Source: Anaerolineae bacterium (GTDB taxonomy: Bacteria > Chloroflexota > Anaerolineae > Aggregatilineales > Phototrophicaceae). Taken from it: a DNA stretch of 64,000 bases. Under the pieces are notes generated by a model. The model saw only the letters and a program-made list of their open reading frames with translations. It was not told where the DNA came from and ran no database searches. Positions 43,151-47,406 of the stretch are shown here, in pieces (the stretch's first letter is position 1; each line of letters starts with the position of its first letter). Position numbers and translations under genes: made by a program. The stretch spans positions 42,000 to 105,999 of the forward strand of contig JALHNT010000005.1 in NCBI GenBank assembly GCA_022843385.1, given 5' to 3'.

Positions 43151-43846
43151 TCATGGCGGATATTTGTAAGCCACAAGGTCGTTAATCACCTGGTGGATTT
43201 CGTTGCTGCTCGTATCAGCGAGTAAAACAGGAGCATCAACCTTGAAGCCACCGAATTGTGATGACAAAGTGAAGCCAGCTTCCTCAAAGACTTCAGTACA
43301 CATCAGCCGTAACGAATCGCATCGATAGAGGTAGTAATCAATCAATTGCCAATCCGACGTATCATGGTTGTAATAAGCCACGAGATATCGATTCTGGTCG
43401 AAGTCCACTTCGCTAATAACCGCCCAGCGACCAAACGGCGATCCAAACCGTTCTGGAACGAACCAAAACGACAACCAATTTGCCGCAGGTATTGCCATAG
43501 CAGCTATGATGATGGTTATCGACCTAACCGCCTTATTCATGTCCTCGATGATGTCCTCGATGGGTTCAGTTTTCATTTCGGCGATGTACCCGGCTGCAAT
43601 GAGGTTGATGAACAGCATGACGCCGCTGACAATCCATAAGCAAAATGTACCCAGAAGCACCTGTGATTCTAACGGCGTAAAGACAATCGGATAGAGTATG
43701 CGATCATTTGCCGGACCAAACAACGCAGTCAGGCCAATGAGCACAATCGAGATCGTTAACGAAGCCAGGGCTGCAATCCGAATAAGCCGATTGAGGAATT
43801 CAACAACAGACTTCAGCCCAGACTTTCTGGTAATCCCCTCACTCAA
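43151..43846 (-). CDS. Membrane protein of unknown function, coupled to metG
   Basis: A 231-residue protein with three hydrophobic helices in the first ~130 residues ('IAALASLTISIVLIGLTAL', 'VLLGTFCLWIVSGVMLFINLI', 'SITIIIAAMAIPAANWLSFWF') and a soluble, probably external tail with two Cys ('YRCDSLRLMC'). No family is recognised. Its start codon overlaps the end of metG by eight bases, so it is the last gene of the nucleotidyltransferase-metG operon. Its GC content is lower than that of metG. Confidence 0.6.
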   Translation of the reverse strand: MSEGITRKSGLKSVVEFLNRLIRIAALASLTISIVLIGLTALFGPANDRILYPIVFTPLESQVLLGTFCLWIVSGVMLFINLIAAGYIAEMKTEPIEDIIEDMNKAVRSITIIIAAMAIPAANWLSFWFVPERFGSPFGRWAVISEVDFDQNRYLVAYYNHDTSDWQLIDYYLYRCDSLRLMCTEVFEEAGFTLSSQFGGFKVDAPVLLADTSSNEIHQVINDLVAYKYPP

Positions 43847-45668
43847 TCGCCCGTTCCTCGCGTGGTTGACCGAGCTTGCTCCGTTCCTGTTCGATGATCT
43901 CCGGCTCCAGCTTGACGATCAGCGGCGCGGGTTCGCGCAGCGCCTGACCCGGTTGCAGCGCACTCTTCTCCCACTTGCCAATCGCCGGGCGCCCATCATA
44001 GACCAGCGCCTTGTGGCTGCGACTGGCTTCGCTGTATTCGACGATGTTGAGGTCGCCGAACAACTGACCGTCATAGCCCAGGAACTCATGCACCTTCTGC
44101 GAGGTGAACGGCAGATACGGCGAGAGCAGCACCTTGAGGTTATCGATCACTCGCAGCACGGTATAGACCGCCAGCGCCGCATCCGCCGGATTCTCCTTGA
44201 TGGTCTTCCAGGGGGCGCGCCGATCCAGATAAGCATTGGTATCGCGCACCAGCGTCATGGCTGTCACCAGCGCTTCTTTGAGTTTGACGCCATCCAGCAG
44301 CTTGCCGATGACCTCGAAGGCGTCCTCGCTGCGGGCCAGGATGGCCTTGTCCTCATCCGTCAGATCGGCCAGATTGACCAGCGGCACTTTGCCTTCAAAA
44401 CGCTTGTAGGCAAAACTCAGCATCCGGTTCGCCAGGTTGCCCCAGGCCGCCAGCAGCTCGCCGTTGACGCGGTTGAAGAACCCCTCCCAGGCGAAGTCCG
44501 AGTCCGCGCTTTCGGGGAACGTGGCGGCGGTGTAGTAGCGGATGGCGTCGGGCTGGTAGCGTTCCAGAATATCCGGCAGCCAGATGGCCCAGTTGCGGCT
44601 CTTGGAGAACTTATCCCCCTCGATATTCATGAACTCGTTGGCCGGAACATCATAGGGCAGTTGCAGCGGTGCCTCAACGCGCTGACCGATGGTATCCTCG
44701 TCGCTGTTGTACAGCCCATCCACCCCCAGCAGTTCGGCCTGCCAGATGATGGTATGGAACGGGATGTTATCCTTGCCGATGAAGTTGTAGATTTCCGCCT
44801 GCGGGTTATACCACCACTGCTTCCAGGCATCCGGCTGACCGATGTTGCGCGCCCATTCGACGCTGGCCGAGAAGTAGCCGATGACCGCCTCGAACCACAC
44901 ATAGAGCTTCTTGTCATCCCAGCCCTCCAGCGGCACCGAAACGCCCCAGTCAATGTCACGGGTGATGGGACGCCCTTGCAAGCCACCGGCGACGAAATTG
45001 CGGCTGAAGCGCACCACGTTGGCACGCCACTGCGCCTCATGTTTGCCCAGATATTCCAGCAGTTGCGGCTCGAAACGACCCAGATCGAGGAAGAAGTGTT
45101 CGCTCTCGCGCACGATCAGCTTGTCGGTCGGATTGTTGCGGTTGCGCGGGTTGATGAGCTGGGTCGCCTCCAGCAGGTTGCCGCAGTTGTCACACTGGTC
45201 ACCGCGCGCGTTGGCGTAGTGGCAGATATAGCACTCGCCCTCGACATAACGATCGGGCAGGAAGCGCTTCTCCTGCTCGCTGTACATCAACTGCTGCCGT
45301 TCCTTATACAGACAGCCATTTTCCAGCAGCTTGAGGAAGAAATCCTGTGAGACTTGGTGATGACTCTCGGTATCGGTGTGGGTGAACAGATCGTAGCTGA
45401 TGCCGATCTTCTGCTGGGTTTGCAGGAATCGTTCGTGATAATGCTCGAACACCTGCCGCGCCGAGATGCCGCGCTTGTCGGCTTCCACCGAGATCGGCGT
45501 ACCATGACTATCCGAGCCGGAGACCATCAGGACGTGGTTGCCCTTCATGCGGTGGTAGCGGGCGAAGATGTCGGCGGGGAGATACGCGCCAGCCAGATGC
45601 CCGACGTGCAGATCGCCATTGGCATAAGGCCAGGCTACCGAAACATGGATGAATTTGGGGTCCGTCAT
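43839..45668 (-). CDS. metG: Methionine-tRNA ligase
   Basis: Charges tRNA-Met for initiation and elongation. The 609-residue protein has the class I signature H21-V-G-H24 (HIGH variant in 'DLHVGHLAGAY') and K353-F-S-K-S (KMSKS variant). A zinc knuckle lies around residues 140-165 ('CYICHYANARGDQCDNC'), followed by the helical anticodon-binding domain. The C-terminal dimerisation EMAP-like domain is absent. ATG 45668 has AAGGAG upstream. It is second in an operon behind a nucleotidyltransferase-like gene whose leader carries a terminator. Confidence 0.96.
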   Translation of the reverse strand: MTDPKFIHVSVAWPYANGDLHVGHLAGAYLPADIFARYHRMKGNHVLMVSGSDSHGTPISVEADKRGISARQVFEHYHERFLQTQQKIGISYDLFTHTDTESHHQVSQDFFLKLLENGCLYKERQQLMYSEQEKRFLPDRYVEGECYICHYANARGDQCDNCGNLLEATQLINPRNRNNPTDKLIVRESEHFFLDLGRFEPQLLEYLGKHEAQWRANVVRFSRNFVAGGLQGRPITRDIDWGVSVPLEGWDDKKLYVWFEAVIGYFSASVEWARNIGQPDAWKQWWYNPQAEIYNFIGKDNIPFHTIIWQAELLGVDGLYNSDEDTIGQRVEAPLQLPYDVPANEFMNIEGDKFSKSRNWAIWLPDILERYQPDAIRYYTAATFPESADSDFAWEGFFNRVNGELLAAWGNLANRMLSFAYKRFEGKVPLVNLADLTDEDKAILARSEDAFEVIGKLLDGVKLKEALVTAMTLVRDTNAYLDRRAPWKTIKENPADAALAVYTVLRVIDNLKVLLSPYLPFTSQKVHEFLGYDGQLFGDLNIVEYSEASRSHKALVYDGRPAIGKWEKSALQPGQALREPAPLIVKLEPEIIEQERSKLGQPREERAIE

Positions 45669-45678
45669 GATAGCTCCT

Positions 45679-46512
45679 TCAGGGTAAAGAACGCTGGGCG
45701 TCGGGCATAATTTCAGCATCACGATAAAAATACTGCTGCGCTTCGATCAGGTCGATAGCCGCGCGGATGACCGGCTGATGTTCCGGGTTGATAATGGCGT
45801 GGAGTTCCAGCGCCGTCAACAGATACAGATTCAGCGCGAAGAAGGCGCGCATCGAGACGCTGACCGGCTCACCGGCAATCGTCACGGTCAGGCCGCTAGC
45901 GGCACAAAAGCAGCGCGTCCAGTCGGCATGAGACTCAAAAAGCTGGAGCACCTGGGCGAAGTAGCGGTTCTCGCTCTCGATGAACAAGCCGCGCTGCACG
46001 CTGACGACGCGGGCGATCCCCAGCACCAGCCCCAGCGTGCCATAGGCCATCGCCGAGAGATCATTCCGCAGCAGCGCCCCCATGATCTTGTGGGCTTCTT
46101 CCGCCAGCCCCATCAGCTCACGGCTGGCATAGGCATCGGCGGCTGATTGAAACAATTTCCAGTTGAAGGGATCGACATCACGTTTGAGCGCCGCCAACTC
46201 GCCGCGTTTGTCCAGCAGCACCCGCATCTGCCGCAGCCCCGGCACCGCCCAGATCAGCGTCTCCGGTCGGGTGATCTCGGCGCGTTTGGTTTTGATGCTG
46301 GTGACGCTGATGCTGACCAGATGCTCATCCACCCGCCGCAAGGTATAGTGATCCTCATCCCGTTCCGGCAGATTCGTGACGAAGACATGCATATCAACAT
46401 CACTGTAGGGGGAAGCGGTGCCGCGCGCGTGGCTGCCGGTCAGCCCGATGGCCGAGACATCCTCCCGATCCAGATCGGCGATGAGCCGTTTCAGAAACTC
46501 GATTGATGTCAT
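45679..46512 (-). CDS. Nucleotidyltransferase-domain protein upstream of metG
   Basis: A 277-residue protein. The N-terminal pol-beta type nucleotidyltransferase motif is intact: 'GLTGSHARGTASPYSDVDMHVF' (G-S-x(7-9)-D-x-D). The helical C-terminal half resembles that of aminoglycoside- or kanamycin-type nucleotidyltransferases, but the substrate is unknown. AGGTAGAGG precedes the ATG. metG begins ten bases after its stop, so the two are co-transcribed; a role in tRNA or translation control is possible but not shown. Confidence 0.8.
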   Translation of the reverse strand: MTSIEFLKRLIADLDREDVSAIGLTGSHARGTASPYSDVDMHVFVTNLPERDEDHYTLRRVDEHLVSISVTSIKTKRAEITRPETLIWAVPGLRQMRVLLDKRGELAALKRDVDPFNWKLFQSAADAYASRELMGLAEEAHKIMGALLRNDLSAMAYGTLGLVLGIARVVSVQRGLFIESENRYFAQVLQLFESHADWTRCFCAASGLTVTIAGEPVSVSMRAFFALNLYLLTALELHAIINPEHQPVIRAAIDLIEAQQYFYRDAEIMPDAQRSLP

Positions 46513-46558: not shown

Positions 46559-46591
46559 AAAAAACCGCCTGTCGATATGGGACAGACGGTT
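46559..46591 (-). terminator. Attenuator-like terminator in the nucleotidyltransferase-metG leader
   Basis: Read on the minus strand: AACCGTCTGTC-ccatatc-GACAGGCGGTT, an 11-bp stem with one U-G pair, then six T. It lies ~45 bases before the start codon of the nucleotidyltransferase gene and ~105 bases after the likely transcription start, so it would stop the operon's own transcript unless antiterminated. Confidence 0.85.
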
Positions 46592-46692
46592 GGTTGTTGC
46601 TGGTCAGGGCGACCATGACGCGCGGCACCTACTCCAATCTGTCCGAATGGAAGCTGCACATCGTCATCAAAAACGTGTCGCCAGTAATCATA
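46592..46692 (-). ncRNA. Structured leader, possible T-box-like regulator
   Basis: The segment between the promoter and the leader terminator holds GGAGTAGGTGCCGCGCG (minus strand, 46635-46619). This is reminiscent of the T-box sequence GGGTGGTACCGCG but has AGGT where UGGN is expected. GGCGAC near the 5' end can pair with GTCGCC further on, competing with a TGGTC/GACCA hairpin. About 100 nt is too short for a classical T-box stem I, so the class is unsettled; a different attenuator or protein-binding leader is equally possible. Confidence 0.4.
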
Positions 46693-46698
46693 AACGCG

Positions 46699-46727
46699 AG
46701 TATAGTAGAAGCATGGAAGCCCGTCAA
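46699..46727 (-). promoter_or_regulatory. Promoter of the nucleotidyltransferase-metG operon
   Basis: On the minus strand, TTGACG and TATACT with a 17-bp spacer. Transcription would begin near 46692, giving a leader of about 180 nt. Confidence 0.85.
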
Positions 46728-46746: not shown

Positions 46747-47406
46747 ATGGTCGCACTGCGCGCCGAAACCCTGGCCGCGCCGCCCGCTGAAGAACGTCAG
46801 CAAATCACTTTTGAAGACTACCTGAAGCAGTACAGCAGCCGCGAAGGAAACCAGAGCGAGTGGCTGGCGGGAGAGGTGGCGCTTTACCCCATGACCAACA
46901 ACGTCCTTCACCAGAACATCATCTTTCTGCTCTCGTTCGTGCTGCACTATTTTGTCACCAGCCGTGCCCTGGGTCGGGTGATTCAGGCCAATGTGCCGAT
47001 GAAGTACAGCGACGAGAAACCAGCCCGTGAACCAGACTCGATGGTCATCCTCAACGCCCATATCGAGCGCATCCGCCCGACCTATGTCGATGGCATCGCT
47101 GATATTGTGATCGAAGTCCTCTCGCCGGAGAGCGACGCTCGTGACCGGGGCGATAAGTTCGTCGAGTACGAAGCCGCCGGGGTGCCGGAATACTGGCTGT
47201 TCGATCCCATGCGTCAGGACGCGCTGATCTACGGGCGCGGCGAGGATGGCTACTATCATCTGCTGCCGCGTGACGAGCAGGGACGGCTGATCTCGCAGGT
47301 GCTGCTGGGGTTTGCGCTATCACCGGATGTGTTGTGGCAGGAGGCGCTGCCCTCTGGCCCGGATATGGTGCGGCTGGTCGAAGGGATGGAGACAGCCGAA
47401 TCCTGA
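46747..47406 (+). CDS. Uma2 family endonuclease-like protein
   Basis: A 219-residue protein of the Uma2/DUF820 family, which has a PD-(D/E)XK-type nuclease fold. Visible are 'ITFEDYLKQY', 'EWLAGEVALYPM', 'REPDSMVIL', 'DIVIEVLSPESDARDRGDKFVEYEAAGVPEYWLFDP' (E-V-L-S-P and the catalytic D..E..K region). These genes are abundant in Cyanobacteria and Chloroflexota; their target is unknown. ATG 46747 has GAGGGG upstream; the earlier ORF start overlaps the divergent promoter. An unexplained 40-codon open frame continues in register after its TGA stop. Confidence 0.85.
   Translation: MVALRAETLAAPPAEERQQITFEDYLKQYSSREGNQSEWLAGEVALYPMTNNVLHQNIIFLLSFVLHYFVTSRALGRVIQANVPMKYSDEKPAREPDSMVILNAHIERIRPTYVDGIADIVIEVLSPESDARDRGDKFVEYEAAGVPEYWLFDPMRQDALIYGRGEDGYYHLLPRDEQGRLISQVLLGFALSPDVLWQEALPSGPDMVRLVEGMETAES

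Follow-up and report, generated by a model that had tools for sequence, protein, structure and literature searches.

The attenuators of the E. coli amino-acid operons and pheST combine a short ORF rich in cognate codons with mutually exclusive antiterminator and terminator structures, and they act on either an amino-acid operon or a synthetase gene. The same features can be recognised in the leader described here, which precedes metG, the methionyl-tRNA synthetase gene, in a genome of 7.85 Mb that belongs to Anaerolineae, a class of Chloroflexota. Unlike the classical E. coli attenuators, the Anaerolineae leader uses the Met codon, and its message is seemingly leaderless. The position of the stop codon is also different: it precedes the antiterminator strand in trp, whereas it lies downstream of this strand in the metG leader. 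The leaderless poly-Cys short ORFs of mycobacteria sense a single amino acid, as the metG leader would. The term for these mycobacterial ORFs occurs in PMC9031893; they differ from the metG leader in their Cys codons and in having no evident intrinsic terminator (PMC1262725).

Classical attenuators have been predicted for trpS and leuS of Streptomyces (PMC1262725). They share with the metG leader the position ahead of a synthetase gene outside Proteobacteria but contain Trp or Leu codons and belong to Actinobacteria, in which this survey reported no conserved RNA structure for the upstream regions of methionine operons (PMC1262725). Before the work on Firmicutes hisS, Proteobacteria and Actinobacteria were the only groups with demonstrated leader-peptide systems (PMC2965389). 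The His leader peptides of hisS and hisZ likewise replace a T-box at a synthetase gene; they differ in phylum and codon (Firmicutes, His; PMC2965389). The hisS leaders of the genus considered here are the closest parallel to them. The T-box (RF00230) performs the same physiological task, and the same genome carries T-boxes at valS and trpE; however, a T-box senses tRNA by direct RNA binding, and the metG leader does not match it. Leaderless genes account for 4–6% in some Chloroflexi (PMC3160421). A literature search with partial coverage found no Met-codon attenuation of metG and no leader peptides in Anaerolineae or Chloroflexota.

The window, i.e., the whole stretch of DNA that was analysed, is 64,000 nucleotides long. 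The leader and its genes occupy the following positions in it:

46699–46727, minus strand: promoter TTGACG-17-TATACT, with 10 of 12 consensus bases; the promoters of relatives are similarly placed.
46629–46691, minus strand: leader-peptide ORF MITGDTFLMTMCSFHSDRLE with its stop codon, read from the sequence; a Met-rich, apparently leaderless ORF is found at the equivalent place in 61 other leaders.
46659–46667, minus strand: putative regulatory Met codons 9 and 11 (ATG ACG ATG); the last Met is 18 nt ahead of the antiterminator core, as in relatives.
46634–46644, minus strand: predicted 5′ strand of the antiterminator, GGACAGA-U-UGG, within the 3′ part of the ORF; it is indicated by the duplex with the terminator 5′ arm and by folds with a ribosome at Met.
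46563–46591, minus strand: intrinsic terminator of 11 pairs, whose 5′ arm CCGUCUGUCC is common to the antiterminator; relatives keep the terminator.
45679–46512, minus strand: gene of a nucleotidyltransferase-domain protein (PF01909), the first of the operon, found in some relatives only.
43839–45668, minus strand: metG, methionyl-tRNA synthetase (TIGR00398, 478 bits), the conserved putative target.

The −35 box (TTGACG, 46727–46722) and the −10 box (TATACT, 46704–46699) are separated by a spacer of 17 nt, and the ATG of the ORF is located 7 nt past the −10 box, so that the message is probably leaderless, judging by the sequence. The ORF contains 20 codons and a stop (ATG ATT ACT GGC GAC ACG TTT TTG ATG ACG ATG TGC AGC TTC CAT TCG GAC AGA TTG GAG TAG, 46691–46629). 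The distance from the stop codon to the terminator stem is 37 nt, the U run of the terminator reaches 46559, and the ATG of the nucleotidyltransferase gene (46512) follows the terminator after about 46 nt. The promoter and the terminator before the first gene had been reported in an earlier note on this DNA, and both are present on the minus strand, with the promoter-to-terminator distance given there. A divergent gene of the Uma2 family begins at 46747. A search of the leader against its own genome revealed no second copy. The nucleotidyltransferase contains a GSHARGTASPYSDVD motif, and its similarity to the ANT(4′) and MntA families is weak.

It is highly probable that this leader controls metG (here, the nucleotidyltransferase-metG operon) by ribosome-mediated attenuation of transcription, with Met as the regulatory codon. 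This reading is based on the elements found in the sequence, on how they are conserved, spaced, and able to pair, and on the enrichment in Met codons; we infer the transcription start, the translation of the ORF, the direction of the response, and charged tRNA-Met as the signal. Transcription would begin at or beside the AUG of the 20-codon ORF, and the leaderless 5′ end would allow a ribosome to load there. A shortage of charged elongator tRNA-Met would make the ribosome pause at Met codon 9 or 11 with its leading edge a few bases short of GGACAGAUUGG. The exposed GGACAGAUUGG would then pair with the emerging CCGUCUGUCC, the terminator would be blocked, and metG would be made. With plentiful Met-tRNA, the ribosome would run over GGACAGAUUGG as far as the stop codon, letting the terminator hairpin form.

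Codon usage was analysed in a clean set of 62 distinct leaders, from which 15 loci with an uncertain start or promoter were excluded (77 in the unfiltered set). The start codon of each leader was assigned mostly on promoter score, ATG being favoured by half a point, and Met content was not used. Internal Met codons make up 198 of 1662 codons (11.9%), compared with 54.7 ± 6.7 and a maximum of 76 in dinucleotide-shuffled versions of these ORFs, and ATG occurs only 16 and 18 times in the other two frames; such counts are inflated by kinship of the leaders, which are not independent, though the ORF sequences are strongly diverged. In the unfiltered 77 leaders, Met constitutes 10.8% of codons, and 65 of them have at least two. 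In the window leader, just two of the 19 internal codons are Met. Leader peptides of relatives are exemplified by MNTKRLFFTLGMMSMRDPRRDGRRALCHA, MKFTSAFPMVPMTMAMQMEMFTCAKWKA, and MNFLLLVSPAGMVISMMRMMMDMRHRVRERAVLRRRYA. All 62 leaders start with ATG; the distance between the end of the −10 box and the ATG is 6–7 nt in 56 of them, 9 nt in five, and 12 nt in one. The stop codon lies 19–44 nt ahead of the terminator in all but one.

The 3′ part of the ORF is complementary to the 5′ arm of the terminator. In the window, the energy of this duplex is −17.0 kcal/mol, which was equalled by 3 of 100 shuffles. For the ORF ends and terminator 5′ arms of the 62 leaders, the mean is −17.2 kcal/mol, compared with −12.3 after shuffling and −13.8 when the partners were swapped between leaders; at most 5 of 100 shuffles were as good in 35 of the 62. 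By this measure, the antiterminator is not significant in, e.g., L070, L071, G030, and G034 among the more distant leaders. The terminator arms vary by clade (CGTCTGTC, GGCTGTCCA, and others), and each pairs best with the ORF ends of its own clade (−19.6 versus −10.7 and −12.9 for other clades; −14.4 versus −12.0 and −12.3; −14.4 versus −10.6 and −12.5). The helix extends past the core toward the terminator loop by 1.70 bases with the leader's own loop side and by 0.88 with permuted ones (0/2000). The pairings GGCGAC/GTCGCC and TGGTC/GACCA pointed out previously do exist; however, the one that matters would be that of GGACAGA-U-UGG (46644–46634) with CCGUCUGUCC.

The last Met codon, measured from its first base, lies exactly 18 nt ahead of the start of the antiterminator core in 29 of the 35 leaders in which this spacing could be measured, including the window leader; kinship of the leaders inflates this count as well. 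A ribosome that has the last Met codon in its A site shields some 12–13 nt ahead, so that the strand of the antiterminator would be left barely exposed. The stop codon is 17–23 nt past the core in most relatives; the leader of the window, a shorter variant, has it 5 nt past the core.

Folds with a placed ribosome were computed on RNA made as far as the terminator loop. In the window leader, the predicted sequestration of the terminator 5′ arm is 0.83 when the ribosome sits on Met 9 or 11, and 0.28–0.36 when it sits on the stop codon. For the 62 leaders, the values are 0.76 (Met) and 0.35 (stop) if the RNA behind the ribosome is treated as unavailable, but the contrast shrinks to 0.76 versus 0.70 once the RNA may also pair across the ribosome. 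In most relatives, a ribosome at the stop codon would not cover the core, because the stop lies 17–23 nt beyond it. As a stop-stalled ribosome leaves the core uncovered, the off state would need either a ribosome lying between both strands, with no pairing around it, or kinetics. Many leaders favour the antiterminator as free RNA, too (0.67), and untranslated leaders may therefore allow high basal readthrough. This ability of the antiterminator to hold in free RNA, together with the existence of alternative structures, would also suit an attenuator run by a bound protein, e.g., MetRS itself, or by a small molecule, with an incidental ORF. An incidental ORF, however, does not account for in-frame Met codons that exceed the shuffle expectation more than threefold and keep a constant spacing to the antiterminator, and Rfam gives no riboswitch match; we consider control of this kind scarcely credible.

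The earlier note had also proposed a minimal or divergent T-box. In such a leader, the RNA itself would bind uncharged tRNA-Met, and this binding would stabilise an antiterminator. A terminator-bearing leader ahead of an aminoacyl-tRNA synthetase gene would fit this proposal, and the genus does have T-boxes. Nevertheless, RF00230 does not match the leader even at E ≤ 5, nor the leaders of relatives' metG: the best Rfam hit of the window leader is a subthreshold GlmZ (E 0.23), with no riboswitch, T-box, or sRNA family matched, and a search of 18 relatives' loci around metG found no RF00230 or riboswitch match in the leaders. In genomes G000, G005, and G014, the same model scores 127.7, 116.3, and 105.6 bits at valS and 121.1, 120.8, and 118.6 bits at trpE, which makes its silence at metG informative. 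No stem I with a specifier and no UGGN-type antiterminator bulge were recognised: there is no full-model match, and AGGTGCC stands in place of UGGN. The T-box-like GGAGTAGGTGCCGCGCG is indeed present, but its TAG directly ahead of AGGTGCC (46631–46629) is the stop codon of the short ORF, which had been overlooked. The sensing element appears to be a translated ORF with Met codons rather than a specifier loop. Conservation is seen in the reading frame, with its Met codons, as well as in the leaderless start and in the complementarity of segments 2 and 3. T-box identity was therefore rejected on the contrast with the 105–128 bits of the valS and trpE leaders, and we regard a divergent T-box as extremely improbable. 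A SAM or other Rfam riboswitch was rejected as well, with no family match in the window or in relatives' metG leaders. The classic T-boxes of the genus are located upstream of valS and trpE (L126:1187-1410; L125; L127; L231, L232, L233).

Among congeneric genomes, 14 of the 16 assessable ones have the promoter, the Met-containing ORF, and the terminator ahead of metG or of a gene inserted before metG. The element is absent from G012 and G016; G008 was left outside this count with its metG at a contig end. A DNA search found the terminator hairpin again in G009, G010, G011, and G014, always upstream of metG. With the whole leader as the query, relatives were matched in the terminator part only, because the ORF sequence diverges yet keeps its Met codons and spacing. 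The nucleotidyltransferase gene adjoins metG only in G000, G001, G011, and G015; in G003, G004, and G010, it is replaced by an acetyltransferase-like gene (identified by reading, not by a family search). The remaining congeners have no gene between the leader and metG and keep the element without the nucleotidyltransferase gene. This pattern points to metG as the likely target.

The promoter, ORF, and terminator are complete in themselves, and the element-less G012 has a TATAAT box near metG; hence they could constitute an independent small gene or sRNA, complete with a terminator and placed upstream by chance, while a separate promoter drives metG. However, the element tracks metG regardless of the inserted gene, no Rfam sRNA family exceeds its threshold, and the enrichment in Met, the 18-nt spacing, and the covarying antiterminator would be left unexplained. 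We consider a chance neighbour of this kind very unlikely and retain the attenuator of metG. The conservation of the leader upstream of orthologous operons, in the genus and in the class Anaerolineae, together with the conserved antiterminator, also backs two earlier suggestions, namely that readthrough is regulated, as implied by a terminator within the leader of the operon itself, and that the leader may be an attenuator other than a T-box.

Judging by genome contigs, the arrangement recurs through the class Anaerolineae. In a sample of the phylum, the element was found in 11 of 16 other Anaerolineae; it was not found in any of the 53 genomes of other classes whose metG could be identified with confidence. 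One of these 53 genomes, G182 (L184), has a strong terminator 42 nt upstream of metG and an ORF with ATG ATG CAC ATG (MMHM) but no clean promoter; possibly, this is an independent Met attenuator. The leader peptides of G095, G104, and G120 (L149, L155, L164) have in common an insert similar to TLAPGASAG that keeps the frame; it looks as though a short repeat had invaded the ORF without disrupting it. Two records titled Pleurocapsa minor and Bacteroidetes bacterium (L063 and L043) contain Anaerolineae-like metG loci and are probably mislabelled or mixed assemblies.

The hisS gene of the genus appears to be preceded by a leaderless-looking His leader peptide and a terminator analogous to those of metG. 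In G000 (L228:1121-1260), TTGTCA-17-TATACT is followed after 7 nt by the ORF MNTTMHHHTQLHKR (ATG AAC ACA ACA ATG CAT CAT CAC ACC CAA CTG CAT AAG CGT TGA), with a terminator 22 nt on. ORFs with His runs (MFHHHGLPKYY, MLHHHDLTKYC, MNLQRHHHAIVERG, and others) are located ahead of terminators at the hisS of relatives (L249, L250, L251, L252, L256, L259, L260, L262). A leader scan revealed no leaderless cognate-codon ORF before a terminator at ileS, valS, leuS, thrS, trpS, tyrS, or pheS. Short ORFs were noted on the gene strand at ileS (L124 about 1326–1390, L123, L122), with GGAGGTG, a GTGATG start, and Ile codons such as ATA, and at leuS (L132, L131 about 1247–1310), with a conserved ATCGAGGTGNNCCGCTCTTCTCTT. 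Both lack terminators and are possibly translational leader peptides.

As a tentative and rather doubtful extension, leaderless leader-peptide attenuators could be a standing alternative to T-boxes for certain synthetases in Anaerolineae (those for Met and His, and perhaps, translationally, those for Ile and Leu), and the Met sensor could be double. The start AUG may read charged initiator tRNA-Met, while the internal AUGs may read elongator tRNA-Met. With such a double sensor, severe starvation would stop ribosome loading, giving a non-monotonic response.

If the attenuator is real, Met joins the amino acids sensed via leader-peptide attenuation. Leader-peptide attenuation on a leaderless message would be placed in Chloroflexota, for which our partial coverage of the literature yielded no earlier report. 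Met is a special case: every peptide starts with it, so the sensor would need Met-tRNA both to begin and to proceed. T-boxes at valS and trpE would stand beside leader-peptide attenuators at metG and hisS in one genome, which would make a gene's choice between the two directly testable.
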